The position numbers and the translations under genes were made by a program. Under the pieces are notes generated by a model. The model saw nothing but the letters and a program-made list of their open reading frames with translations. It ran no database searches and was not told where the DNA came from. From positions 84,308,053 to 84,372,052 of the forward strand of contig OY720344.1 of assembly GCA_963082975.1 (NCBI GenBank): a stretch of DNA of 64,000 nt, given 5' to 3'. This DNA comes from Labia minor (taxonomy: Eukaryota > Arthropoda > Insecta > Dermaptera > Spongiphoridae). Below, one piece after another: positions 6,833 to 62,370 of the stretch. Position 1 is the stretch's first letter, and every line of letters starts with the position of its first letter.

Positions 6833-6996
6833 TAGAAGGGATTTGACACTATCATCAATCATGTTGAAATTCTCTGCAATTGAAAAGGAAGAGTTAATAA
6901 TAAATAAGAATCAAAAATAACTTAAGTATATTTTCATCAATAAAATAATATTTCAAATTTCCAAATTCTCGATTTTAATAGAAATCTTATTAAAAT
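4501..6996. other. AT-rich spacer, no gene seen
   Basis: No coding-like frame, RNA gene or inverted-repeat element was recognised. A perfect (AT)n run lies at about 6807-6830. If the CpG island is the Hippo promoter, this stretch is intron. Confidence 0.5.
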
Positions 6997-7610
6997 AAGT
7001 TGACCTGTGGCCAGGTCCGAACCGACCGACGGTTTGAAATAAATTAATTTCCAGCTACAGAAACAATTTCAAATAATTTTAATATATCTATTAATGTAAT
7101 AAAAAACAGATATGGATACATAAATAATAAATATAAAAATTTTTAATTTTATTTTATTTATAATATATATGCAAGACCAGGCTGTGACGTCATGAATGGC
7201 TGGATGACGTCATATAATTTTAAATCAAGAAAAAACTAATAAATATGATTTTTCTCGAGGATAAAACCAATACAAAGTGCATGATTCGTGGTGATATATA
7301 AAAAAATCTCCTTTGGTGTGAAAATAACCCTTTCCTTCCTATCGTCGATTGCTAATACTACCACTTCCGGTTTCCGGAATTGCACCAAAAGTTGATCAAT
7401 TCATCCCACTGATGCATTAAGTAAATATACCAAATTTCATCAAAATCGGTTGAGCCGTTCAGGCTGTACACATCTATACGGGCGGACAGACATCATGCTA
7501 AAAATACTTTTTTCTGTTTAGAAAATGCATGATTCGTGGAGATATGTAAAAATCTCCACATGTGAAATTTGGTGTGAAAACAATACCTCCCTTACTATCG
7601 TCGGTCGGTA
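6997..7610 (-). mobile_element. Family B Helentron-like (HINE) element, copy B1, full length
   Basis: The element reads on the minus strand from 7610 (head) to 6997 (tail). The head starts ACCGACCGACG after a T-tract and the tail carries the inverse complement, CGTCGGTCGGT. After that comes a perfect 6-bp hairpin, GACCTG-GCCA-CAGGTC, and the end AACTT. Inside, a second degenerate head copy (about 7268-7360) flanks the core with GAAATTTGGTA and ACCGGAAGTGGTA. It carries two palindromic TGACGTCA sites (7185-7192 and 7205-7212). There is no coding capacity, so it would move only with help from an autonomous partner. The layout fits Helentron-derived elements; assignment to that group is inference. 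Confidence 0.7.
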
Positions 7611-8765
7611 AAAATATAGGCGATTAATCAATTATTATATATGAGTGTCTAGTGATAAATATTATTAATTTTGTTAAGTTATTTGTGTAATTAAATTTTC
7701 ATTTAAAAATAATCATCATTTAAAAAATAGAATTGATTAACAATCAAATGAGTTAAGTTGGTTAATATTAATTTGGTCATGATTTAGAATTCCCATAAAC
7801 AGAAAATAATATATATTTTAATAGTATAGTAAAATATTCGCACTTATTAATCCATAAGTATGTATGTTATCTAAAATACCAGTAAATAAAAAAATTTTCT
7901 TCGAGTTTATAACCAGAAGTTGAGAATATATATTTTATAAAAATATTTTAACATTTTATGTAGATATTATTATATTTTTAATTTATTTAGATGAGTTAAT
8001 TAATAAACAAGAAGCAAAGAGTATCCCCTGAGGGTTAATTTACAGAATTCACGTAAAATTACTCATGAGAGAATATAAATGAAAAATAAAATCTTTGTAA
8101 AGCGTTTTTAACGAAGAAGTATTGGAATCTTGAAATTGAGAATTTAAAATATTCTTGAGTTTCATAATTTCTTAAGAATTTAGAAATTCTTTAGTTTTAC
8201 AATTATACTTGAAATTAATTTTAATTTTATATTGAATTTTATAATTAAGTTACATATTAAATATCTGGGATCATAAAATAATAAGTATATTATAACAATA
8301 ATAATATATATTGTCTTAATCAAAAGAAAAAAAAAATAGTTTGTGTTTTTTTAACCTTTTCGTAAAAAAAATATTAATTTGTAATAGTTTAATCATGATT
8401 GTGGTGACATATTTACCTCAGATAATATGTTTGATTGTCTATGATTGATTAGTTAAGATAAAATAAAATTTTTATCAAATATCTGACATCCAAATAAAAT
8501 TCAAAAATACTTGACATCTTTAAATTGATGGAATCTGAACATAAAATAAAATTGCATACTTAAAAAAATTGTATCCTTTAAAATCCCTCCATATAATGTA
8601 TTTCATTCATTTAAATTTTCTAAAATTTAATTATAGATTATATCAAAATTTTGTAAATTATATTAAAATATAAAATTAATTAAATGATTATAATTTAAAA
8701 AGTATGATTGTAATTCAATTCAATATTTTCTATATCATAAAGTAGTTAATATGAGTAGATTATTT
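7611..8765. other. AT-rich spacer, no gene seen
   Basis: Sequence between two family B copies with no open frame worth calling and no recognisable repeat. Confidence 0.5.
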
Positions 8766-8985
8766 TTACCGACCCACGATAGGAAGGAAAGGTATTGTTT
8801 TCACGCCAAATTTCACATGTGGGGATTTTTACCTATCTCCACGAATCATGCATTTTGTTAACAGAAAAAAGTATTTTTAGCATGATGACTGTCCGTCCAA
8901 CCAAGATAATATAATTTAGTCATTTTAATTCAAGTTTTAAAAATATTTTATTTTTTTTTGATACCTTATATATATATATTAAAAT
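8766..8985 (+). mobile_element. Family B element B2, deletion derivative
   Basis: The head ACCGACCCACGATAGG is followed by the standard family B 5' section up to the GTCC repeat at 8898. It then jumps directly to a stretch beginning AACCAAGATAATATAAT that also occurs inside copy B5 (about 50158-50220). The core and the 3' subterminal repeat with hairpin are missing, so this copy is 5'-anchored and internally deleted. Confidence 0.6.
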
Positions 8986-9266
8986 GTTCATTTTCTTATT
9001 CTCAGAAAAAACCCTTGAACTTATTTAACTAGATTAAAGAAAAATAGAATTAATAATTTAAATAAAGACTATTAAGTGATTTTCAAATAATTCGTAATTA
9101 ATAATATCTAATATTTTAAAAGAATATTCAGCAGGTATAATTACTTTGTCTGTATAAAATTATTGTTTAGTATAGGAAAAAATTTAAAAATTTATTTTTT
9201 AAAGAAAATACATATATGATTTTAATAAAGTATGTCATTCTATAAGAATGGAGAGAAAAATAAAAT
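8986..9266. other. AT-rich spacer between B2 and B3
   Basis: No gene or element recognised. Confidence 0.4.
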
Positions 9267-9880
9267 AAGTTGACCTGTGGCCAGGTCCGAACCGACCGAC
9301 GGTTTGAAATAAATTAATTTCCAGCTACAGAAACAATTTCAAATAATTTTAATATATCTATTAATGTAATAAAAAACAGATATGGATATAACATAAATAT
9401 TTTTAATTTTATTTTATTTATAATATATATGTGAGACCAGTCATGAATGACTGGATGACGTCATATAATTTTAAATTAAGAAAAAAACTAATAAAAATGA
9501 TTTTTCTCGAGAATAAAACCAATACAAAGTGCATGATTCGTTGTGATATGTAAAAAATCTCCTTATGTGAAATTTGGTGCGAAAATAACCCTTCCCTTCT
9601 TATCGTCGATCGCTAATACTACCACTTCCGGTCTCCGGATTTGCACCAAAAGTTGATCAAGTCATCCCACTGATGCATTAAGTAAATATACCAAATTTCA
9701 TCAAAATCCGTTGAGCCGTTCAGGCTGTACACATCTATACGGACGGACGGACGGACAGACATCATGCTAAAAATACTTTTTTCTGTTAAGAAAATGCATG
9801 ATTCGTGGAGATATGTAAAAATCTCCACATGTGAAATTTGGTGTGAAAACAATATTTCCCTTACTATCGTCGGTCGGTAA
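9267..9880 (-). mobile_element. Family B Helentron-like element, copy B3, full length
   Basis: A close relative of B1 in the same orientation: head at 9880 after a T-tract, tail hairpin GACCTG-GCCA-CAGGTC near 9270, subterminal repeats ACCGACCGACG/CGTCGGTCGGT, and a GTCC-type microsatellite in the core. It keeps only one of the two TGACGTCA sites (9456-9463). An incidental 77-codon minus-strand frame over the core is not a gene. Confidence 0.7.
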
Positions 9881-19600: not shown

Positions 19601-22600
19601 CAAAATATTCATTATTAATATGAAACACAAATGTATAAGTAAAACTCAATTTTTTTATCTTATTTATTATTTTTCAAAATAATAAATAATAAAATGTTTT
19701 ATATTTTATTTTCATTTAACTGTTTCAAAAATATAATTAATTAATCTATTAATTTTTTGTTTGTTTGTTTTCTTTTGTTTAGCGAGCTGAAGAAGCTCTC
19801 CGAGGAGAGTTTGACACGACAACCAGAAGAGGTTTTCGATATTATATGTAAACTAGGCGAGGGGTCTTATGGCTCGGTGTATAAGGCACTTCATAAAGAG
19901 TCGGGGCAGGTGTTGGCCATCAAACAGGTCCCTGTCGACACCGACCTGCAGGAGATCATAAAGGAAATCAGCATCATGCAACAATGTGACAGTCCTTGGG
20001 TGGTCAAATATTATGGCTCCTATTTTAAAAATACCGATCTCTGGGTGAGTAATCTATTTTTTTATTTGCCCTTAAAAAATTATTTAATTTAAATTAAAAT
20101 TATAGAATTTATTTTATTTATAAATATTTATTATGTGTTTTCACATAATTAATTTTTTTCCTTCATTTAAGTGTATGTATTAATTACATTACAATTACAA
20201 ATTGATCTATATTTAAATATTTATTGTTTCTCTAATTAAAAATTTTTCAAGCTATTTTTTTCATATAGTAAATTAATAATATATTAAAATATTTCTTTTA
20301 GATCGTTATGGAGTATTGCGGCGCTGGTTCCGTTTCTGACATAATGAGACTCCGTAAAAAGACTTTAACTGAGGATGAAATTGCAACAATCCTATGTGAC
20401 ACTCTAAAAGGCCTTGAATATCTTCATTTGAGACGTAAAATTCATAGAGATATTAAAGCCGGAAATATTTTACTAAATATGGAAGGGCATGCAAAATTGG
20501 CCGATTTTGGAGTTGCTGGTCAATTGACGGTAAAAACAAAAATTTTTGAAATTATGGAAATATTCGATTTAAAATGTTTACATTTGTGAATTAAATGTTT
20601 ACTTCTTCCACAAAATGCATGTTTTTCTAATTTTTTTTATATTCAATTTTTAATATGAATGAACATATTTTTTTAGGATACAATGGCTAAACGAAACACA
20701 GTGATCGGAACTCCTTTCTGGATGGCACCAGAGGTGATCCAAGAGATTGGTTATGATTGTGTGGCTGACATATGGTCCCTAGGAATCACAGCCCTTGAAA
20801 TGGCTGAAGGGAAACCACCATATGGGGATATCCATCCAATGAGGGCGATTTTTATGATTCCGACGAAGCCACCTCCGTCGTTTCGTGAGCCGGATCAGTG
20901 GTCGCCTGAATTTATTGACTTTGTCCAACGTTGTTTGGTGAAAAACCCGGAAGAACGCGCCACCGCCACCGAATTACTTCATCATGTTTTCATTGGTAAG
21001 TTCATATATTTTGTATTCTCAAAATTATAACTCTTTGTAGAGATCTCCTTGGTTAATTTATCTGATTATTTTATTATTATTCTTCATTATTTTAATAATA
21101 ATTATTTTGAAGAAGATAAATAATCTTATAAGTTTGCATTAGTCTAGTTTTGTAATTGATTTGGAATACACATATTAGTAATCAATTTTATTTATACGAC
21201 CTTGCATTAAAAATACAGAGTAGGTTATTTATTTATTTCTAATTTTTTTTTAATTATCTACAAACATAGTCATAAATTGGAAATGATTCATTCAAAGCTT
21301 TTATATTAATCGATAATATTTTTTTGGTTTTTCTATATATATATTATTGAACGATAATACAATTTTATGTATATTTATTGTATTTATAGGAAACGCAAAG
21401 CAACCGAATATTTTGGGACAAATGATTGCTGAGGCCCGCGAGATTCGAGAGAACCTTTCCTACCGGAACAGCAATGCAGCGGCAGCAGCTGCAGCAGCGG
21501 CTGCGGCAGCAGCAGCTGGAAAGCAACAGCAGAACAACCAAGATGATTCGGTGGGTGGCGGCGGTGATCTTCCTGAGCATCCTGCCCACTAACCGCGATG
21601 ATCGTACACTAACCAACCAACCAATAATCATCATCATCAACATCATCTTCATCTAATCTTTATTAATTTCATCACATATTAACCCCGCCAACTCCTATAT
21701 TTTTTTTCTATATCCCTTCTTCATTTCTCTCTCCTGGATGTATCTTTCCTTTTAATTATTTATGTTTATAATATATATAATTGATGTATGCTTATGTGTG
21801 TATGAGTGGGTATATGGGAATGTGTGAGAGTGCATGTTTATAGAGAAATGAATGGTTCGACACTTGTCCGTCCCCTCCATCCGCCCTTTGTCTCCCTTTG
21901 TGCTTTCTCAATAAGAAACTAAGACAGTTATAGTAGTTGTAAGTGAAATAAATGAACTTGGAGTTTGTGTGTGTCTTTCTCTCTGGAACGACATTTATGA
22001 TGGCGGTATAGGATGACGAGGAGCCCCTCAACAGCAACACGATGGTGCAGTACCCTGCCGATTCCGGGACCCTTGTTCCTTCAAGATTCGACGAGCTTGA
22101 CGGCGTGGCAGGCTCCGCCGATGGCACACTACGGGATCACCTCCGCCGAGACGGCACACTCGTTCCCGGCGGAAGTGATTCAGGCACCATGCTTGAACTT
22201 CAATCCGACCTTGGTACGATGGTGATCAACAGCGACACCGACCAGGAACCCACTATGAAACGTAATTATTCTCTTTTAATCATTTCTATTAATTTATAAA
22301 AATCTAAGCTAATATTCATTTTCCTTTACTTATTCATTTAAAGAATATCCACTTTACTATATTTTTAATATATAATATATATATCAGAATATATGTGTGT
22401 TTATATTATTATTCTTTGTTTTTAAGGACATGATACTGGACCAGGCGAACAGGGCAAAAAATATCGTCCTCTTTTTTTGGATCATTTTGATAAAAAAGAA
22501 GTTGATATTAAGGTATAACAATTTATTTATAGTAAATTATAATAAGTAAATTCTCTATTTCCCTTTAATTTTTATTAAATAAAAAATAATCTAAAATTGC

Positions 22601-31058: not shown

Positions 31059-31322
31059 ATTTAATATTTATGGATTAAAAATTTCTTAAATGTAAATATT
31101 TGAAATGAGAGAAACACATACGAATTGTTCTTAGCGAGAAGGAAATTTATAAATAAATAAATAATCATTTCTATTTCCATAAATATACTATTTATAAAGA
31201 TAACAAGAAATCCATTAATCATTGATTAACCAAGATAATTAATCAAACGCATTTTTAATCATCTAAGTTTATCAAACAACTGATTTACGTACATATGAGT
31301 TAATTTATAAATGAAAAAAATT

Positions 31323-31913
31323 TGGAGTGTCTCCACTCGGCTATCTCGCAAATTCGAATTGGATTAATTAACACATATATATTATATTTAAAATAAATTA
31401 TAAATTAAAATTAATAAATAGTATTTATTAAACCAGCGCGAGTTTGGCTCTTTGTTGATAGCACCACGTCACGTCCTGGCGCGTGATTGTCAGTCAACGT
31501 GTTAAAAAATTAATTCCCGTACTTTCAGCGATTCAAAATTCTATATATAGTAGTTTTATACAATTTTAATCATGTGAAAAACTATCAAAGATATATCTTT
31601 ATTTTTACGGTCAATTTAGAGGAATAAAATATAAACGTGGTAGGTAATCCCTCTTCTGAATGAGCAAATTTCTTAAAATTATAATGATAGAAGTGATAGA
31701 AAACTACGAATTTTGAATAATGCCCGTGTACCAAATTTCATGATTCTAGCTCAAACCGTTTTTGCGTAATCTTGTCTACATATCTACATACACATACACA
31801 CACACAGACATTTTTCTCAACCTTAGTGAAAATGACCTTCAAAACGTATAAAAACATCAAAATCTCGACATCAAAAATTTTCATGATCGCAATACTATCT
31901 CTGGCGAGATAGT
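31323..31913 (-). mobile_element. Family A Helentron-like (HINE) element, copy A1, full length
   Basis: Reads on the minus strand from 31913. The head is ACTATCTCGCC followed by AGATAGTATTG, so it folds into a 7-bp hairpin ACTATCT/AGATAGT. Then come a GT microsatellite and the core with AAATTTGGTAC. The 3' subterminal repeat GCGAGATAGC is next to a hairpin GAGTG-GAGA-CACTC. A T-tract precedes the head. It has no coding capacity. The layout matches Helentron-derived elements; that assignment is inference. Confidence 0.7.
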
Positions 31914-32229
31914 AAAAAAGGAAGAGGAATTTTTTGTTTTAAATAAAACAACTGTAATATGGGATTTTTAATTTCTTTAATATTTGCTAGTATAGTAAGA
32001 TGCGAGATTGAAAGACAATTGCTGTTTTTCAATATTATAGATTTATATAAAATATTAAATATATAATATTGAAAAAATAGTAATTGTTATGAGAAGAAAA
32101 ACAAGTTTGTTGATATTCGTCATGACGTGAGATGTGTTTTTTTAGTTTTCTCTTCACGCCTGGTCTATTCTCAGAGGAGTACGTGAATATATTTGATTTA
32201 ATAGTGCTTATTGTGAGTTCCTATATTGT
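31914..32229. other. Spacer, no gene seen
   Basis: A GC-richer bit at 32100-32190 is unassigned. No element was recognised. Confidence 0.4.
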
Positions 32230-41938: not shown

Positions 41939-43643
41939 AATTATAAATATACAAGTATATTTATAGATATAATAATTTAAAGGTTATTTTCACATGAAAT
42001 TTGAGAGATTTGAATCTCGATGTTTCGTCAGTCATTTTTGCACAATTTTCAAGAGTATTTTAATGAAAGATTTTTTAGACTGTGTGACCAAGAGCCAATG
42101 TTGGTATTTTGGGTTGAATGGGCTGGGGTAATTTTTTTGAATTACTAAAGTTCTGAAGAAACTAACACTAACACGCGTCTGGCTGATACCACAATCCGAA
42201 GCTTCTTGTAAATTAAGCCCAAATTGGCGTCAAAATTTTAAATCTCACAAATATACTTGAATTAACCTGGAAAAATTATTATATCTATACCATCTAGATC
42301 AAGATTTAGATAATCAAGTTTAGCCAAGGTGTGATCCTTCAGTCGGTTAGGCCAAAACACTTCAACTTCAACTAGATTTATAATTTATATATTTCAAAGA
42401 AAATAATATATATCTTCTAAATATAAATATAGGTATATAACAATATCCAGTATATAAGTATATCCAGTCAGTGAATATCAAATATAATAACTTGTATAAA
42501 TAATTGAGCCTCTCTTTTATAAATTTTGATCAAAGTATTAGCATTTTTTAAGATAATAAATATTAATTAGTAAAAATAAGAAAAAATTCAAAATAAATTA
42601 AGAATAAATCAAATGATATATCTAATCTGAAAATAAAATAAGGCCATTTTCAAAATAAACGACTCTAATTTTAATTTTATTTGAAATTTATTATTGATTC
42701 ATTAAATTTGAAATTTTCAGATTTAACTTAAGTGCAGGGATAAATTTCGAACTGTTATTCTATAATTGAATAAATCAATATATACTATACAAAAAGAAAG
42801 TAAAAACAAACAATTTTGTCTTTTCTACAAAGATTGTATTAAATTGATTGTTCTTGTAAAATATATATTTGAAAATTAAATGTTATAGTTTTAAGAGAGA
42901 TCTTCTTTTACCAGAATTTTTATTAAGTTAAGAGCAAAATATAATATATAAAATGATAAGAACTGTTTCAAATAATAAAGGATACTATCGTTCAGAGGTG
43001 TAAATGAAGTGGGCATCGGTGAATAAAAGATAAAATAAAATTAACCACCAAGAAACGATATCTTTGCTCTTTTATCGAAAAAAGAAATCAAATCTTGTTT
43101 TATCTTTTTCATTTTTATTTTTTTTTAAAAAGCAATTTTCTCATCCAAGAAATGGGAAACTTATCTCATTCGAGGGTCCATGGATCATATAATTATATTA
43201 GATTCGAATTTCTTTTCAAAGATAGGAAAGGGATGCCAAAAATAAGATAATATCACTTGAAGTAGCACAAGGTAGACAAAAGAGGTTGAAATATGAAAAT
43301 AAATGTAAAAATAGAAAATCAAATCAAAGTGAAATGATTTGATAAAAATTTTATTTATATTTCACTTATAAATTTCGAAATTCATTTTTTTAATGTATTG
43401 TGTTATCAATTAGATTAATTATAATAGAAAGAAAATATATAATTTTTTATCAAGGATAGAACTGAAGAGTTTGCTTTAATATAGGAAATTTCAATAGAAG
43501 AACATCCTCGGTGGTTGATTAGCCACTAGCATTGATGGTCTGTGCCCCTAGGTACACTAGGCCTAGGGGTCTCGGTTTAGAAGCGACCCCAAATTTTTAT
43601 TTTTTTTTTTATTTTTAATTTTTGGAAATAATATTAATTTTTT
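41939..43643. other. Spacer, no gene supported
   Basis: AT-rich with a GC-richer patch at 42000-42370 that has no stable frame. A palindromic C/T/A/G-rich motif (CCCCTAGG ... CCTAGGGG) lies at 43545-43569 and may be a worn inverted-repeat element. Confidence 0.4.
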
Positions 43644-44055
43644 ACTATCTCGCCACAGATAGTATTGCGATCACGAAAATTTTCAATGTCGAAATTTTGA
43701 TATTTTTATACGTTTATACTAAGGTTGTGAAAAATGTCTCTCTCTCTGTGTGTGTGTGTGTGTGTGTATATGTAGACAAGATTACGAAAAAAGAGTTTGG
43801 ACTACAATAATGAAATGTGGAAGACAGGCATTATTCAAAATTCTTATTTTTCTATCAACTTTTGAAAAATGTAGCTCATCCGGAAGAGGGTCATTAGTCA
43901 TTACCTACCCCACGTTTACATTTTTTTTTCTCTAAACTGACCGTAAAAATAAAGATATATGTTTGATAGTTTTTTACATGATTAAAAATTGTATAAAACT
44001 TCTATTTAAATAGAATTTCAGCTTGATTGAATTGCTGAAAGTACCAAAATTAATT
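43644..44055 (+). mobile_element. Family A element A2, 3'-truncated
   Basis: The head ACTATCTCGCC with AGATAGTATTG follows a T-tract. The GT microsatellite, core (GATTACGAAAAAAG, CCGGAAGAGGGTCATTA) and post-core run to GAAAGTACCAAAATTAATT, where similarity to A1 and A3 ends. The 3' subterminal repeat and hairpin are absent. Confidence 0.65.
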
Positions 44056-44559
44056 CACCACTGAATATCATCTTCTTTAAAAAGGTAAAATAAAATTATA
44101 ATCATAAGAGTATTTTAATGAATATGAGTGTGAATTTGAATTAATATTTTTTAAAGAAAGTATAATTTATTTTAAATAAAGGTGGAAATAATTAGAGTAT
44201 ATTTTTCAATATTTTATTGTCTTTGCATTTATTTTTTTAAATTTATGGTAATCGATCTTCAAAATTGAATTTACATTTAATTGATTATTAGAATTAAAAT
44301 TTCAATTCAAATCTCTATTTAATTGATAAATCTAATATTGATCAATATAAAATCACAAAGGAGAATGAAGCATAAAGAAAAAAAATTTAATTATTCAAAA
44401 AATTATTATCAAAATCCTATTTAAATATTTACGTGTGTGATTTAAATAAAAATAAATAAAGTAATTAATATGAAATTTTTTTGTTGAAATGAATAGCCAA
44501 TCAAATTCTTCAATTCCGAGTCACGTGTTCAAAAATAGCCAATAAGAGAACAATTTTTT

Positions 44560-45046
44560 ACCGACCGACGATAGTAAGGGAGGTATTGTTTTCACACCAA
44601 ATTTCACATGTGGAGATTTTTACATATCTCCACGAATCATGCATTTTCTTAACAGAAAAAAGTATTTTTAGCATGATGTCTGTCCGTCCGTATAGATGTG
44701 TACAGCCTGAACGGCTCAACGAATTTTGATGAAATTTGGTATATTTACTTAATGCATCAGTAGGATGAATTGATAATCTTTTGGTGCAAATCCGGAAACC
44801 GGAAGTGGTAGTATTAGCGATCCACGATAGGAAGGAAAGGGTTATTTACACACTAAATTTCACATGAGGAGATTTTTTTATACATATATATTATAAATAA
44901 AATAAAATTAAAAATATTTGTTATATCCATATCTGTTTTTTATTACATTAATAGATATATTAAAATTATTTTAAATTGTTTCTGTAGTTGGAAATTAATT
45001 TACTTCAAACCGTCGGTCGGTTCGGACCTGGCCACAGGTCAACTTT
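44560..45046 (+). mobile_element. Family B element B4, full length, lacks the TGACGTCA section
   Basis: The head ACCGACCGACG after a T-tract is complementary to the 3' CGTCGGTCGGT. It is followed by the perfect hairpin GACCTG-GCCA-CAGGTC and AACTT. The core has GTCCGTCC, GATGAAATTTGGTA and ACCGGAAGTGGTAG. A second head-like copy starts at about 44822 (CCACGATAGGAAGGAAAGGG). The 120-bp section with CRE-like palindromes found in B1 and B3 is missing. Non-coding. Confidence 0.7.
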
Positions 45047-46198
45047 TATCTTATTATCATTTCTCTTTCATGTAACATCGGTTCCTCTAAATTTATTTCT
45101 GCTGAGTCTGCCGTTGGAATGTATATTCAATTAATTACATTTAAATTTAATAATTTTTCAAAATAGTCTCTGTATCTATTTTTATACACGTATGTTATCA
45201 AATCGTTATTATAACCCTTTATTAAGTATAACAGTGCCTGGCAATCTTTTTTTGATATTTTTAATTTTTAAGCACGAATCTCTGCTATTCTTGTTATAGC
45301 CATTTTCATCTACCAATAATATTTTATTACAATTTTTTTTAATTAATTAATTTTTAAAAAAATGAAAAATTGAAACAAATAAATAAATAGTTTTTGATGA
45401 TAATATATATTGTCGCAGTTTGTATTGGTGAGAGTTGCTGAGCCAGCGCCTAGTTCAAAGGATTGGTGCTTGCAGATATTATGCTTGCGCATAAGTATAA
45501 TATGTATGATATGTTTTGCATTAGGCTTATATTCTTGATTATTGAATATTTTAAATCTAGATTAATGAATCTTTATCTTATTTTTTATATTTCTATAATT
45601 AATTATGTAAATAATAGTTTTTTTATTAGTAGTGTTATATTGTTCGTATTTTTTTACAATTCTAATGTATTTTTGATTTTAAAAATAAAAATTTAAAAAG
45701 ATATTAATTCAATATAGTTTTACCTTTATTAAAATACTATAAAAAATTTCTAGAGAGTTTTTGAATTTATAATACTAATGAGAGTACCAATCATTTACAA
45801 TTTTTTTTCTACAGTTATTATTAAATAAAGCATTACAATAATTTTCAATAAAATTTTATTTTATTGCTGAATATATGCCTTTTTATTAAATTTTATTAAT
45901 TTCATAAATAAAATAAAATAATATTAATTTAATTTTTGAAGTCAGTTTCTCTTCAATGTCATTTGTTTTTTTTTTTAATTCAAATCAACTTATAATATTA
46001 TTTATCGATAATAGATATCGAAGAGTCTCGTATTTCTTCGAAAATCTATACTTTAATTTTCTATTACTACCTTGCAATTATATTTTCTATGCATTCTGCC
46101 ACTTGGAATGAAGATGTTTATTTGAATGATTTACATTTTTCAATTAAAAAAAATAATTATATTAAATTTTTGTTTTTTAAAACACTTTTCGTGAAAGT
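45047..46198. other. AT-rich spacer, no gene seen
   Basis: An open frame at 45463-45696 is Ile/Leu/Phe/Asn-rich and follows base composition; no splice or family support. Confidence 0.45.
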
Positions 46199-49138: not shown

Positions 49139-50443
49139 AGTAAAAAAAACCTCGATATAGCGGACGAACAAAACAAAAAAATAAAACGAAATGTTTTAAC
49201 TCTAACAATGCACCCAGATTTGTTCAAAAACAGATTTTTTTAAAAAAAATTATTCCTTCAGTGAGAAAATTTCAAGAGAAGAAACTGGGAATAGAAGAGG
49301 TGAAATGTTTATTGATTATAGACAATATGCTCTTGTTTATCCCTCTGAAAATATTCTAAGTTGAGTAACTTTAATTGTTTGTTTTCGTTAAAAAATACAA
49401 CATTACTTATTTAACCCATGGAGCTTGGACTAATTTTGGCAACCAAATGAATATATTTAGAAAGTTATTCAATGAAGTAATGGTTGTATTGCAAGATGAA
49501 AATAATGCAGAAGATTCTTGAGGTCAGCGAACCTTAAAAAACTTAAAGTGTTATTATTTAAAATTTTAAATTTTGCTGCACCTTAGAAGAGAAAACATTC
49601 AAAAATGGTTGAAAGAATTTGTTTGATGGCCAAGATCCAGAGATAAATTTAGAAGAATTAGAAGTTTCTAATTTCTGTAGGGTAATACATAATGTTAGAA
49701 AAGGATTAGCTGAGACATACTTTGAAATGGCTATAAGTAATGAAGGCCCGAGATATAATTTCTTTTGTTTTTTACCGACCCTTCGATAGGAAGGGTATGT
49801 ATTGTTTTCACACCAAATTTCACACGTGGAGATTTTTACATATCTCCATGAATCATGCATTTTCTTAACAGAAAAAAGTATTTTTAGCATGATGTCTGTC
49901 CCCCTGTCCGTCCGTCCGTCCGTCTGTCTGTGTGTCCTTATACACTTCCACAGCTTGAATGGGTCAACGGATTTTGATAAAATTTAGTATATCTACTTAA
50001 TGCATCAGTAGAATGAATTCATAAACTTTTGTTGATATCCGGAAACCGGAAGTAGTAGTTTACAAAGTATTAATTTTATATTCATTGTCGGAAAATATTT
50101 CACTTAAAATATAGTAGTATTATAATTAATAATTTAAATACCAAACTAAAAATAAAAACCAAGATAATATAATTTAGTCATTTTAATTCAAGTTATGAAA
50201 ATATTTTTTTTTATACTTTATATAAATATATATTCTACTAATAATGTTGTTTGGAAATTAATTTATTTCAAATCGTCGGTCGATTCTGTGCCTAGCCACA
50301 GCTCATTTTTTTTATTTATATCTAGATACAGTGTATTTTCAACAAAAAGTATTTTTAATTTATTTTAATACTATTTTTACCTGACGGCATTTCTGCTTTA
50401 ACGGATACTCCTACGATTAGTGGGTTATATCGAGGTTTCACTG
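49139..50443. mobile_element. pogo/Tigger-like element interrupted by family B copy B5
   Basis: The right end TATATCGAGGTTTCACTG, flanked by TA, is the inverse of the worn left end AGTAAAAAAAACCTCGATATA. The CACTG-AAACCTCGATATA end is typical of pogo/Tigger elements. The left part (49250-49760) contains KCLLIIDN-like sequence reminiscent of the LLLDN motif of Tigger/jerky DDE transposases, plus other degraded coding-like pieces. The family B insertion splits it at 49774-50306. Confidence 0.55.
49774..50306 (+). mobile_element. Family B element B5, full but worn
   Basis: The head ACCGACCCTTCGATAGG after a T-tract leads to a long GTCC/GTCT microsatellite, a core with GATAAAATTTAGTA and ACCGGAAGTAGTAG, a tail section AACCAAGATAATATAAT shared with B2, and a decayed 3' repeat CGTCGGTCGAT with a hairpin GTGCCTAGCCACAGC. 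It is nested in a Tigger-like element. Confidence 0.65.
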
Positions 50444-53572: not shown

Positions 53573-56028
53573 AGATCGTTTATTATATACATCGTATAAT
53601 AGGATATAAATATATTAAAAAAAAATTTTTAAATTTTTTAGGGGTTTTATCTGCTCATTAGTTAGAATTTAAAATTTTTCACTGATCTTTACGTTCCATT
53701 TCCTGAAGAATTCAAATACGACTAAGTCAATAGAATTAAAAATTGACTGATCTAATTACTATGAATTTATTCTAGAGTATTCTTATACACCCTTATTTGA
53801 ATATAAGCTATACATTTTATGAATCTAAATCAGAAACTTAAAAATTAATTTTTTTTTAAATTTATTTAAATCTGTGCATTTGTTTTATCGGATGCATTCC
53901 AAAATTTTTCCATACATGTTCAACATTTAATATAAAAATATTAATTCTATCAATTTCCGCTCGAAATTATTATAATATTTTAAATTAATAATTTAAAAAT
54001 AAAAGGTTTTACACTTATTTTAACAAATTACTATACAGAGGATAAAAGGGAAATATGTTGTTTTTATAGTTTTATAATGTTACTTAAATATTAAACTAAA
54101 AATTTATAAATCTAAATGAATTTATTTTCAATTAGAGTATATTATAAATAATTTATATATTAAAATATAAAATAAAAAATATATTTTCAGATAATGTTAA
54201 CCACACAAAGGGTCAAGTTAATTTGGTTTTTGATAAATGATTTAGCAAAGGATTATTAACTAATAATATAGTAGTGTATGCAAATGAAAAACAATTTTCT
54301 TATTCAAAAAAGTTCATACTGATCACCCCACCCTTGTATTTCTCTCTCTCTCTCTCTCTCTATTTTCGAGTGAGTGATTGAATAGAAACATGCTCACTCC
54401 CATCAAAAAAAAAAAAAAAAAAAAATTAAAAGGCAGAAATGTTACAAAAGACATACTATATGAAATGATTTCCAGATTTGCCATTCTAAATAATTAATTA
54501 TTTCTCGTAATGAAGTTTGTATTAATAATTTATGTGTGAGTAAGTGCTTTAATGACTAAAAATTCTATATGAATTGATTAATTAAAATCTTAATTTGTAA
54601 ATAAATTATGAAAGTGAATATAAATTTTATCTTATTACATTATTTGAAGAATAATTATCGATTTATTTTAAGATTTCAATGATAAAAAACAAAACCAAGA
54701 AATAAATTTGAAATTTCTTAATTTAAAATAAATATTAGAATTTAGTATTCTTAATGATGAATAAAAGCCTTAATATTTCAATTAATATTGTAAATCATTG
54801 TTAGATCTTTTGTACAATGTTTGAAGCAAATTTTAAATTATAAAAAAAAAGAAAAAAAAATATATATAAATAGAAAAGTATATCAAAGTAATTATGTATT
54901 GAATTATTATTAATAAAAATACAATAGATAACATATTAACTAATTTAATCAATGTATTCATAAAGAATATTAAAATTTAAACGTTAAGAATAAAAATGTA
55001 TAACTATTCCATTTTCTCATAAATGTTTGAAAGAAAAGCATTTGAAATAAAGTCTAATTTATATATATGAATAGTTAAAGCATAAAAAAACTAATAACTG
55101 GTATTAATAAATATTAGTAATTAAAGAAAATAAATAAAATAATTATTTACCATCAATCACCCAGCCAATTTGTTCGTTGTCTTGTCATATTAACTTTTCA
55201 AAGCAAACTAAATAAAAAAAATATTTTCTTCTATTTTTCTTTCTAATAAATTTTTCTTCGAATTGGCCGACTGGCTTATCGCTATTCTCGAAAAAAATAC
55301 TTTAGCCAAAGGAATTATTCTAGAGAGACCCGTTTTCTTCAAATAAAAATTTATCATTGATTCTCATTTTTATGCCAATCAATATATATATTTTTTTTAA
55401 ATTAGTAGATAATAATTTAATGTAATTTTAATCTTAAATTAGTAGCAAGTGAAAGAAAAGAAATGATTAAGTAATATCAATATTATTTATTTTTTTTATA
55501 ACAAATATATCCTATATATATTATATATTCAAATATAATTTAAATAATGAAAACAGATCAATCTTCTGAAGAGGAAATTAATAATTTATTATATAGGTTT
55601 TTGTCTACAAATTAGTTCAAATTTACAATTTTTTTATATATTTTTATATATTATATATTTACGTTCTATGATCTTGAGATTTGAAAAATAATTTTAGAAT
55701 TTTTTATGACTGTCCGGCAACAATAACAATCCTATCATACATGTACTTTTTACATTAATTACATAAATTATATGAATTTTTACATAAATTACAAATGAAA
55801 CAAAAATATTTTTAAGTGAGATAAAATAAATTAAAATCTTATAGAAATTCATATTTTTTTCATCTTGAAACACAAATGATATAATAATTTTAAATTTCTG
55901 AATTGTGATTTTAAAATGTTATTTATGATTTATGCCTAAAACTAATTTTTTATTTTTATTTATAATTTAAGAGAACAGAAGAGATTTATTGTATATTGAA
56001 TATTTAAAAAATAATATATTTAATTATT
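53573..56028. other. AT-rich spacer, no gene supported
   Basis: TC repeat at about 54342-54362 and an A run at 54406-54424. The only protein-like frame is a 29-codon stretch at 55258-55344, discussed under rejected items. Confidence 0.45.
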
Positions 56029-56610
56029 ACAATCTCGTAAGAGATAGTATTGCGATCACGAAAATTTTCGATGTTGAGATTTTGATGTTTTTATACGTTT
56101 TGAAGGTTCCTGAATCATTTTCACTAAGGTTGAGAAAAATGTCTGTGGGTGTGTATGTGTGTGTGTGTATGTATGTAGACAAGATTACGCAAAAACGGTT
56201 TGAGCTAGAATGATGAAATTTGGTACATGGACATTATTCAAAATTCATAGTTTTCTATCGACTGTTGAGAAATGTAGCTCAACCGGAAGAGGGTCATTAC
56301 CTACAACGTTTTGATTTTTTTTCCTCTAAAGTGACCGTAAAAATAAAGATATATGTTTGATAATTTTTCACATGATTAATAATTGTATAACACTGCTATA
56401 TATAGAATTTCAGCTTGATTGAATCGCTGAAAGTACCAGAATTAATTTTTTAACACTGCAAATCTCACGTGCCATCAATAAAAAGCCAAACATGCCCTGG
56501 TTTAATATTTATTATTTATAATTTATAATTAATTAAATTTAATTTAAATATAATATATTATGCTATTTAATCCAATTCAAATTGCGAGATAGTCGAGTGG
56601 AGACACTCCA
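56029..56610 (+). mobile_element. Family A Helentron-like element, copy A3, full length
   Basis: The head ACAATCTCGTAAGAGATAGT then ATTG is a variant hairpin. A TGTG/TATG microsatellite, the core (CAAAAACGGTTTGAGCTAG, GATGAAATTTGGTAC, ACCGGAAGAGGG) and the 3' repeat GCGAGATAGT with hairpin GAGTG-GAGA-CACTC complete it. Apart from the terminal variant it aligns along its length with A1. Confidence 0.7.
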
Positions 56611-57436
56611 GCTTTTTTTTAATAATAATACAAAGAATCAATTGAATATTTATTTAAGTTTTTTAAATGCAAAGAAGCAAAATTAAGATAAAACATGTAA
56701 CACATGTAATCAATTCTTTCAACCTATTCACCGCTTAATATTACAATAATACATGTTCCACCAGTACTCCTTCATTTATTAATTCTAAGATAATCTAAAG
56801 AACATTAGAGGTTGTTTAAAACAAAACAATTTAACCAACAAATAATAACAACCACAATAATTTTAATCACTAATTTTTCTAGTAAATCTCTTTCATATAT
56901 CTTTAATATTATAGAATAGAGTCAGAAATTAAAATGAATTTGAAAAAAAATATTTTTATTCATATGAAATTCTTCTAAAATTTCATGAGTAATTTTATAA
57001 ATAGTTTTCAATGATATTTTCATGAATATTTTATTTGAACCCCTTGATGGTAGGCAATTATTGTTGAGGCTGTCAGATCAGACGACACGCTACCAATATT
57101 CCAACCGTTTTCCATTCAAATGCTAATAGCTTCATTATTTTTAATCCAAAATCAATCCAATTGAATATTTGGACATTGAATGCTCTCTTGTTTTATATAA
57201 TATAACTATCAATCAGACTATTCCTCCAATATTTAATCTTCCAAAATTGTCTTCTCAAAAAATAAATACAATCTTTCACTATTGTATTTTTTATTTAACA
57301 ACTATACTTGTGAAATTTTATATTGGAAATTAATATTTATATTTTTGTTTTTAATTATTTTAAATACATATCTTTTATACATATTTTTGATCAATAGACA
57401 GGTATATGAAATCAACCTGACCTTTCATCCTTTTTT
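56611..57436. other. Spacer, no gene seen
   Basis: A GC-richer patch at 57035-57110 is unassigned. Confidence 0.4.
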
Positions 57437-57558
57437 ACTTTCCCGCATACTTCGTATAAGGGAAGTATTGGAATCGTCAAAAATTTCGACTTCGAGATTT
57501 CGATAGATCTTGACGTTTTAGACCTCCCTGAGTCGGAAAATACCATTTTTCGAATTAT

Positions 57559-57615
57559 GTCTGTGTGTGTGTATGTATGTATGTATGTGTGTATGTATGT
57601 ATGTATGTATGTATG

Positions 57616-57643
<28 letters not shown>
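57559..57643. repeat. TG/TATG microsatellite in family C
   Basis: TGTGTG passes into about 18 TATG units. It is the same position in the element as the GT run of family A and the GTCC run of family B. Confidence 0.9.
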
Positions 57644-57646
<3 letters not shown>

Positions 57647-57945
57647 TGTCTGTAAGCAAATTTACTCAAAAACTAATCAAGCTAGGACTTCGAAATTTGG
57701 TACACCGATATTATTCACAGTTTGTAGATTTCTATCAAAATTTCGTCAAAATCGGTTAACCGGAAGTGGTACTTTACCTACACTGGTTGCGTTTACCTTT
57801 CAAGTAAAGTACCAGTTTGCTTCGAGATATTTGCTTCATATTTTGTATATAGATTTAAAAATATGAAAAAAATTCAGATACCAAATTTCATCATGATCTG
57901 ACTACCGGAAGTGACATTTTACCTATACAAGTAGCGTTTCTTTTT

Positions 57946-58005
57946 ACCGACCGACGATAGTAAGGGAGGTATTGTTTTCACACCAAATTTCACCTATGGA
58001 TATTT
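57946..58005 (+). repeat. Family B head embedded in family C
   Basis: After a T-tract, ACCGACCGACGATAGTAAGG, GAGGTATTGTTTTCACACC and AAATTTCACC match the family B 5' end closely, then similarity stops. Confidence 0.65.
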
Positions 58006-58095
58006 TTAGGTACCAAGTTTACACATTCTAAATATTCATTCACAACTCTTTATACCTATTTATATGCGGGAAAGTCTAGGGGAGGACACTCCCGC

Positions 58096-58619
58096 TTATT
58101 AACTTTCTAACTAATACAATACACAAAATATAATTAAAAATTTTATAATAAAAAATAAATAAATCAATAAAAGCAATATTTGAAACTTCTTAATATATTA
58201 TGTCAATTAAAATTAAATTTAAAATATAAAATTTCATTATTTACACGGGAAAAATTATAAGTTTATTGATTTATTTACAGTTGAGAAGAAGTTTCTGGTG
58301 ATAACCAATGAACATAAAGCAAATAAATATATAAAATAAACTTTACAATTTAAACTTAAATTAACTAAAAATTTTTCTTTATTTAATAATAATTAATATT
58401 TTTAATTTTTAATATCATTCATAAAAATAATTTCAAATAAAAAGAAGAAATCTTAAAAAAATAAAATTTAAAATGATATATTTTTTATATTAATTAATAA
58501 AAATAAATATTACTGATATGAGAGGGTAAGATAAAGAAGAAATAAATAAATAATTAAATATGTGAAAGCATTCAGAGAGAAATTAATGGGGTTTTTTTGT
58601 TATAACTGTATTTTTTTCA
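58096..58619. other. AT-rich spacer, no gene seen
   Basis: No element or coding-like frame recognised. Confidence 0.5.
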
Positions 58620-60483: not shown

Positions 60484-61669
60484 CAGGGTGGTGCAGATGA
60501 AACGCATGTTTTTCAATATTGAATTACTGGAACACAATGGGTTGAAAATAATAAAAACAAGTATTAAATGATAGGTTTTTTAATGCAGTTTTTGAAATTA
60601 CATACCATAATTAGGTTCGGAAATAATGTCTTTGAGATGACGTCCTTCTTGATAGATACAAATTTAGTCATCGAGTGTTCGAGGCTTGTTGATGGTCACT
60701 TTTGATTTCAAATATTCCCACAAAAAGAAGTCACATATCGACAGGTCGGGTGAGCGAGAGGGCCAGTAAACATCACCAAATCTCGAAATCACATGTCCAC
60801 CACTTCCATGGATTCTTTCTCCGTGTGAGCTGTGACACCATCCTGCTGAAACCAAATGTCTCTCATGTTCACTTGACGCCTTTCAAGTTCTGGACGAAGG
60901 AAGTTGTTTAATATTTCAACGTAGCGAGCTGATGAAACAGTAACTGCAATTCCTTCCTCTTGAAAAAATAGGGTCCAACAATCCCCAACTTTGAAATGCA
61001 GCACCACACTGTAACCTTTAAACTGTGCAGAGGTCTTTGGTGTAATTCTTGTGGGTTCCCCGATGCCCAATACCGACAGTTTTGAACAATGACGTCAAGA
61101 TGAAAATGTGCTTCATCACTCATGAAGACTGTAGCATCGGGATCTTCCGTAAACATTTGATCCATTATGCGACAAAACTCTCTGGGCTGTACAAAATCCC
61201 CTTCATTAAGCTGCTGGGCCATCATTATTTTGTAGGGATGGAACTTGAGGTCATTATGTAAGATGCGGTGAAGCGAACGACGTGACATACCCAGCTTTAC
61301 AGCATGTCATCTAGTCGATCATCTAGGACTGCCGTTCTGATTCGGTCTACATTTTCCGGAGGACAAACTGAACGGGAAAGACCAGGTGGTTTCTTTTTCA
61401 TCACAGAACCAATACTTCTAAACGTCGCAACCCATCGGAGTACGGTATTTCGATCAGACACTGCACCTCGACGTCCAATTCTAAAATATTGACGGAAAAG
61501 ACGTTGCACTATGACTACAGATTCATTGTTTCTAAAAAACTGCCCGACAAAACACATGATGTTCGCTCCAACGCTCCATAGCGGCATTGTATGGGCCGTC
61601 TGCCAACATTCGTTCAAGGTCAATACCCCCTCCCGTCGCCGCGTACTAGCTGTTCGAAAAACCACCCTG
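60484..61669 (-). mobile_element. mariner-like transposon of DD41D type, both ends present, inactive
   Basis: Inverted ends CAGGGTGGT (60484 and, inverted, 61669) are flanked by TA on both sides; the whole is 1186 bp. On the minus strand, pieces of one transposase follow in order. First is an N-terminal helix-turn-helix region (ESVVIVQRLFRQYFRIGRRG, NTVLRWVATFRSIGSV), 61610-61350. Then MSRRSLHRILHNDLKFHPYK and FMSDEAHFHLD (first Asp), IWFQQDGVTAHT (second Asp) and SRFGDVYWPSRSPDL with CDFFLWEYLKSKV (third Asp), ending near 60664. Shifts separate the four pieces at about 61290, 61050 and 60820. By comparison with relatives, the last two Asp would be 41 residues apart. Confidence 0.88.
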
Positions 61670-62370
61670 TACATTATCACAACATTCACTTTGGTTTTAT
61701 GTATTTTTCAAAAAAAGAGAAATTTTATTAATTGCATTAAATTGCCACAAACTAACAACTAAACGCACGTGTCTTAAACTATAACACCCAACCTTCAAAT
61801 ATTAAAAAATAAAAAAAAATTCTTTCAAAAGACTCTTGAATTCCAAATATATATATATTAATTACGTAATTAATTTATATCTACTAGCAGGCCAATGCGA
61901 AGATTTCGCTGATAGTAATGATTAAACGCTTATTAACAGTTTAAATTTACTACTTTTTAATGATATTGACAACGAATTCAAAGAAACAAAATATTTAAAG
62001 AATAAATAATTCTATAAAATACGTGTATAATGGAACAATTCACAATATCATCAACAAAAATAAACAGACTTATTTTACTTTTTTTCCGTGATAAACATCG
62101 TGCCCTTCTTTCTTTAGTCAATCGACGCTTTCTCTCATTTGAATCTTCGTTTGTGTAAATTGCACAATTTTTCAAAATATAAATTTAAATATAAAAAATA
62201 TTTAGAAAATATTAATCAATTAATTTAACATAATTTTATTTTTAATCTTATAGAATATTAGAACTTATAATAAAAATTTAAATTTTATAAACATTTTTTA
62301 TATGAAAATTTTTAGAATTAATCATTTTATTTTGAGTGTCAACTTCTAAACTTAGCCACATGGAGCATTG
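61670..62370. other. Spacer; contains an ACTAGC-hairpin motif
   Basis: At 61883 ACTAGCAGGCCAAT is followed by the hairpin GCGAA-GAT-TTCGC (61897-61909). Otherwise AT-rich with no gene. Confidence 0.4.

Follow-up and report, generated by a model that had tools for sequence, protein, structure and literature searches.

What kind of mobile element are the three repeat families that recur in one stretch of the genome of Labia minor (Dermaptera, Spongiphoridae), and which element supplies the proteins that move them? The stretch, called the window below, comprises 64,000 nucleotides (assembly GCA_963082975.1, contig OY720344.1, positions 84,308,053 to 84,372,052 of the forward strand), and window positions are counted from its first letter. 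An earlier note, made from the letters alone, had described one layout common to families A, B and C and had inferred from it that they are Helentron-associated interspersed elements (HINEs). The present analysis leaves very little room for doubt that A, B and C are HINEs, that is, non-autonomous deletion derivatives of Helentrons, the endonuclease-bearing Helitron2-type rolling-circle transposons; the inferred membership is now supported by the element ends, by a target between two T residues and by a Rep-helicase partner. For A, both ends are tied to an autonomous element. For B and C, HINE status is strongly supported, the link to autonomous elements running through the 5' ends only. All three are ordinary in kind, a known type of mobile element that is well pinned down, and the one unusual point is the Ulp1-like protease that the A-type partner seems to carry. 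An assignment that began as a layout guessed by eye has now been tested, and its ends, target and partners are exactly defined, in one genome where three HINE families can be compared with their Rep elements.

Ends and internal layout

The genome searched comprises 604 Mb in 71 contigs. A first look gave at least 4079 candidate places for B, at least 2102 for A and at least 725 for C, counts in which the queries may cross-match, and 40 places were scored per family query. Both ends were compared in 47 copies: 10 of A and 10 of C, in each case chosen from the highest-listed of 40 scored places, and 27 of B, from 25 of 30 loci. The B loci left out are L006, which represents the same insertion as L005, and L008, L011, L014 and L022, which have no end pair within the set limits. 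L001 is the window's own B copy, and L012 and one copy at L027 have a common 5' flank. The 39 other scored copies of C are 91–99% alike to that in the window, which suggests that this family may have moved recently.

The layout described in the earlier note is present in the window sequence of all three families: a T-tract is followed by a TAC start, a subterminal repeat, a head ending in GTATTG, a microsatellite, a core, the inverse of the subterminal repeat and a 3' hairpin. The microsatellite unit is TG in A, GTCC/GTCT in B and GTAT in C. The elements run from TAC to T(T/A)AT, a few bases outside the limits first proposed. The start is TAC in 46 of the 47 copies (TAT in one B copy), the end is T(T/A)AT in 45, and the subterminal repeat begins at the second base of the element. 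Exact subterminal inverted repeats of at least 9 nt occur in 9/10 A, 10/10 C and 21/27 B copies, and the rate among 20,000 placements made at random in the window is 2.0%. At a length of at least 8 nt the counts are 10/10, 10/10 and 24/27 (44/47 in all), compared with 4.8% of random placements. The exact repeat is 10 nt long in A, 11 in B and 13 in C.

The 3' hairpin has a stem of 5 bp and a loop of 4 nt in A (GAGTG-GAGA-CACTC) and in C, and a stem of 6 bp with a loop of 4 nt in B. It lies 8 nt from the end in A, 7 nt in B and 6 nt in C, and its fold z-scores are −1.8 (A), −2.3 (C) and −2.9 (B). At the other end, the GTA of GTATTG pairs with the terminal TAC, so that GTATTG is not an arbitrary tag, and the head can fold into a 5' hairpin. 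This is perfect in A (9 bp), has a broken stem in C and is reduced to four outer pairs in B, where the fold is no better than that of shuffled sequences.

Target site and empty sites

Insertion between T and T without target duplication was borne out in these samples by the flanks of the 47 copies and by empty sites. A T is present at position −1 in 47/47 copies, at −4 in 46/47 and at +1 in 46/47, across A, B and C. Matches of 2 nt or more between the two flanks consist of T only and are no longer than in shuffled pairs, and no non-T duplication of fixed length, which would have pointed away from Helentrons, was found in the 47 copies.

Joined flanks of 20 copies were searched in the genome, ten of B in one query and four of A with six of C in another. 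Three of the 20 (two of B, one of C) match many genomic empty sites over their full length, with nothing duplicated or lost at the junction. Of the 57 matches to the B query, the first 40 fall to L003 (18) and L012 (22), and the other 17 are shorter pieces of L012. Compared letter by letter, all seven fetched empty sites of L003 agree over the junction; L121 has a single additional base, which lies outside the T-run. For L012, the evidence consists of the matches to the B query, together with the joined-flank sequence and loci L122–L128. The joined flank of the C copy L093 accounts for 40/40 matches in its query, 39 of them identical over 115 nt spanning the junction. The flanks and the three empty-site matches together indicate that the elements sit between two T residues of a T-run, with nothing duplicated or lost.

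One A copy, L024, is split by a B copy at A 291–295, inside its T-run. The T-run of the A core is also struck, by reading, by another A copy in L112, and is possibly an insertion hot spot. At L089, L075 and L009, full C, A or B copies have stubs of C or B heads immediately in front of or behind them; these stubs are perhaps aborted or tandem insertions.

An autonomous partner with both A ends

A search of the genome with the Helitron_like_N profile gave 104 matches, and a Rep-helicase element with matching ends, for which the earlier note had proposed to look, was found among them with both ends of A. It lies on the same contig as the window, at C1:47.86–47.87 Mb on the minus strand, and measures ~12 kb by reading, insertions included. 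The 5' end, which begins at TTTTTACTATCTCG, is 92% identical to the first part of A over 473 nt; the 3' end, on the same strand, is identical to the last 38 nt of A (38/38). Between these ends is an open frame of 2181 codons, whose product combines Rep and PIF1 in one protein (DUF6570, Helitron_like_N and PIF1 helicase in a Pfam scan). The Pfam scan of this protein gave no DDE domain, the feature that would have spoken for a cut-and-paste element.

The protein carries YERVEFQMRGSPHEH, a GSPH-type motif (RGSPH). According to section 7 of PMC4067079, S between G and P marks a Helentron, and L marks a Helitron. Among the other loci surveyed, L is found in L033, L037, L034, L031 and L044 and S in L059 and L106; L036 and L051 gave no match to the motif. 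A weakly matching endonuclease region with a GDFN motif lies in the C-terminal part of the protein. When the last 422 residues were compared with the genome, 82 of 93 matches covered query residues 111–189 only, at 35–41%, a pattern that would be expected of an endonuclease that retrotransposons share.

The 3' junction recurs in a second copy of the partner, at C1:44.69 Mb, which is flanked by other sequence, and the 5' junction from A to autonomous sequence recurs on C60, at 97%. In addition, A 500–552 aligns, with its order kept, to the 3' leader of the partner itself (83% over 53 nt, AT-rich). Part of the partner's leader (L107:2480–2638) is a common repeat, with at least 39 further matches at 97–99% over ~157 nt.

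Partners of B and C, and mixed ends

Candidate partners of B and C were sought as endonuclease loci, found with the C-terminal 422 residues of the A partner protein, that lie near Rep matches. An endonuclease element at C1:55.79 Mb has a B 5' end upstream on the same strand (93% over 536 nt, B 1–527), and one at C1:44.70 Mb has a C 5' end upstream on the same strand (93–98% over C 1–502). The frame that follows the C 5' end is 54% identical to the A partner protein over 283 residues; between the A and B partner proteins, likeness in the endonuclease region is only 35%. Both the B and the C partner copies are interrupted.

The match of the C partner to C ends just before the B head that lies inside C. 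Likewise, the leader of the A partner holds a B-type 5' end, within a stretch that continues for ~1.7 kb at 93–99% like the B partner; the A partner is therefore itself composite. Fusarium Helitrons with more than one 5' end have been described, with self-insertion proposed as the cause (PMC5148889).

Weighing the assignment

Several observations weigh against the assignment to Helentrons. At the level of single copies, two B copies end in CTTTT rather than CTTAT, three have no exact inverse repeat, and the inverse repeat lies 23–26 nt from the 3' end, compared with 38–60 nt in the mite HINEs of PMC4067079, to which the families are likened by layout and not by sequence. Among the empty sites, none was found for the four joined flanks of A, in a query whose scored places were filled by the C flank; the remaining 17 of the 20 joined flanks gave no match among the 40 places scored per query, a result that says little. 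The endonuclease match of the A partner (Exo_endo_phos_2, E 6.8e-5) reaches 23.1 bits vs a Pfam cut-off of 27.4. A third copy of the partner's 3' region (L112) does not extend as far as the A end, no A end was found in 801 nt fetched beside a fossil copy on C10 (L133), and the leader of the partner is mixed, as noted above. Downstream of the B and C partners, 3.2 and 2.4 kb of sequence, respectively, yielded neither 3' end; by reading, the B partner runs into retrotransposon-like sequence and the C partner into another Helentron copy. For a third endonuclease element, on C63, the 12 kb fetched gave no end of A, B or C.

Short, numerous and AT-rich, with inverted repeats near their ends, the three families have the look of miniature inverted-repeat transposable elements (MITEs) of a cut-and-paste (DDE) transposon, and DINE-1 itself was formerly called a MITE (PMC2374699). 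A DDE origin is nevertheless highly improbable, given that the repeats are subterminal, that the ends are asymmetric and that no non-T target duplication was found in the 47 copies or in the three empty-site comparisons; for A it is already refuted by the Rep-helicase encoded between both A ends. Equally little credit can be given to descent from canonical Helitrons (TC...CTRR ends, target between A and T), for instance from the young RGLPH family L037, although canonical Helitrons are present in this genome and are nearly identical between chromosomes. The ends here are TAC...T(T/A)AT and the target lies between two T residues, and the A partner has RGSPH together with the weak endonuclease match.

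A slightly better case, though still a poor one, can be made for an unrelated Rep element that was inserted into a copy of A and so came to lie between A ends. Likeness to A breaks off near A 508 on the left and resumes near A 546–550 on the right, in AT-rich sequence, and the L112 copy of the 3' region without an A end also fits this account. The second copy, with the same 3' junction in different flanks, and C60, with the same 5' junction, speak against it, because they indicate that the A-partner unit moved with its junctions. The match of A 500–552 to the partner's 3' leader is also in order, as it should be in a deletion derivative, albeit in an AT-rich stretch.

If A, B and C are mobilized as Helentron derivatives, the HUH nuclease of Rep would nick at the TAC end adjoining the T-tract, the helicase would peel off one strand, with the 3' hairpin marking the stop, and the single strand would be joined into a T-run. 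The Rep protein could work in trans on any element that retains the first ~30 nt and the last ~40 nt. The recognition signal is likely to be the 5' hairpin with the internal inverse repeat, and the microsatellite and the core would be passengers.

A possible protease in the A-type partner

The C-terminal residues of the A partner give a weak match to Peptidase_C48 (E 0.001; 19.4 bits vs a cut-off of 20.7) and a match to SENP8 at E 0.0046, in which HW, DS, QQN and YDCG are aligned to SENP8. We take these to be the catalytic His, Asp, Gln and Cys. This region is 97% identical in a second A-partner copy, with no stops, and 76% in the C10 fossil, with stops. In the B partner, the same place behind the endonuclease is occupied by an in-frame OTU domain (E 2.4e-9). 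OTU is a known companion of Helentrons (PMC4067079); in PMC2836005, OTU is assigned to Helitrons, and Ulp1 to Mutator and Ginger. No Ulp1 in a Helentron was found in the literature searched, which was covered in part, and none appears in the available parts of PMC4067079 and PMC5148889.

From these alignments we lean slightly towards the view that the A-type Helentron bears a Ulp1/SENP-type (C48) cysteine protease in the OTU slot of the B type, a deubiquitinase-type enzyme having been swapped for a deSUMOylase-type one between families that may also trade 5' ends. If true, this would point to a real need for stripping a ubiquitin-like tag during transposition. It would also make the role of the Helentron protease testable, because OTU and Ulp1 enzymes both remove ubiquitin-like tags.

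Comparison with known systems

The closest likeness in layout is to the HINEs of the mite Metaseiulus occidentalis and of Culex (Thomas, Vadnagara and Pritham 2014, PMC4067079). There, as here, the subterminal inverted repeats are themselves palindromic (here clear in A), and a 3' palindrome, microsatellites, a T-rich target without duplication and derivation from Helentrons of the same genome are also reported. The repeats of the mite HINEs are 12–15 nt long, 1–2 nt above the lengths in B and A. The mite palindrome measures 5–10 nt and lies 8–35 nt from the 3' end (PMC4067079); a 3' palindrome as used to recognize HINEs is present in A, B and C (stems of 5, 6 and 5 bp).

DINE-1/INE-1 of Drosophila is related by layout only: it has a subterminal inverted repeat (13 nt there), a microsatellite, a 3' stem–loop and a TT target as here, and likewise an inverted repeat whose 5' side lies within the 5' subterminal inverted repeat (PMC4067079). 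In Fusarium, Helitron2/FoHeli has an asymmetric inverted repeat, hairpins and copies with several 5' ends, as here (PMC5148889). For Helitron2, the insertion site is given as lying between TTTT and T or C (PMC5148889). The fungal elements differ in that no endonuclease domain was found in them, according to the available parts of the same paper.

Other Rep-helicase elements

Three other Rep-helicase elements were rejected as partners. No A, B or C end was seen, by reading only, for L037 (L061, L062), and none was found for L059 or L106. A stretch of L059 that lies ~5 kb beyond the frame matches the 3' part of B4 (380–465) in two pieces (91% over 57 nt, 84% over 86 nt), with no B end following. 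Both L059 and L106 carry the GSPH motif; the pieces scanned gave no endonuclease match, and the elements' own ends were not found in these searches. In the motif and in the absence of an endonuclease match from those pieces they resemble the proto-Helentron of PMC4067079.

L037–L043 and L045 belong to one canonical Helitron family (L037 has RGLPH), and their open frames span 1537–1655 codons. Seven loci are 99.9–100% identical over 3.5 kb and the eighth is 98.8% identical, which indicates very recent activity. Scans of IMG/VR, limited to exact matches of a single terminal motif from each family, gave 0 stretches for A, for B and for C.

Copies within the window

The copies in the window are listed in Table 1. 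Of the eight copies given in the earlier note, seven are complete at both ends, the 3' tip being altered in two of these; the copy at 43644–44055 lacks the 3' part, and no A hairpin occurs in the 505 nt directly after it. The A copy with altered last bases retains the subterminal repeat and the hairpin. The division into three families stands as regards the common layout, but A and C are not independent, as their cores are related (68% over 291 nt, E 6e-20).

Table 1. HINE copies of families A, B and C in the window, with the parts of the C copy
Feature	Position	Strand	Remarks
Family A HINE, full length	56028..56616	+	39 other scored genomic places at 88–96%
Family A HINE, full length, final bases AAAT not TAAT	31320..31914	-	82% to 56028 copy
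Family A HINE, 3'-truncated, without inverse subterminal repeat and 3' hairpin	43643..44055	+	Match to A stops at A 422 of 591
Family B HINE, full length	6995..7610	-	Ends same as genomic copies
Family B HINE, full length	9265..9879	-	90–97% to 6995 copy, in blocks
Family B HINE, shorter form, 3' tip CAACTTTT not CAACTTAT	44559..45047	+	Locus L001
Family B HINE, diverged, degenerate 3' hairpin	49773..50307	+	
Family B 5' fragment, head only	8764..8898	+	Missing from the list in the earlier note
Family C HINE, full length	57436..58099	+	39 other scored genomic places at 91–99%
C 5' subterminal repeat ACTTTCCCGCATA	57437..57449	+	13/13 to inverse partner
C microsatellite, mostly (GTAT)n	57560..57645	+	
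Copy of B 5' end inside C, 68 nt, second/internal 5' terminus	57941..58008	+	95.6% to B
C 3' inverse subterminal repeat TATGCGGGAAAGT	58063..58075	+	
C 3' hairpin GGGAG-GACA-CTCCC	58080..58093	+	

Two further features of the window lie outside these families. On the minus strand, the frame at positions 60908–61707 is broken; its first part encodes a DUF4817 helix-turn-helix domain, and it is likely to be what is left of a cut-and-paste transposon of a different kind. On the plus strand, positions 19745–21030 contain two kinase-domain exons (Pkinase), which presumably resemble hippo/MST kinase; the presence of these two exons indicates that the window is nuclear DNA.
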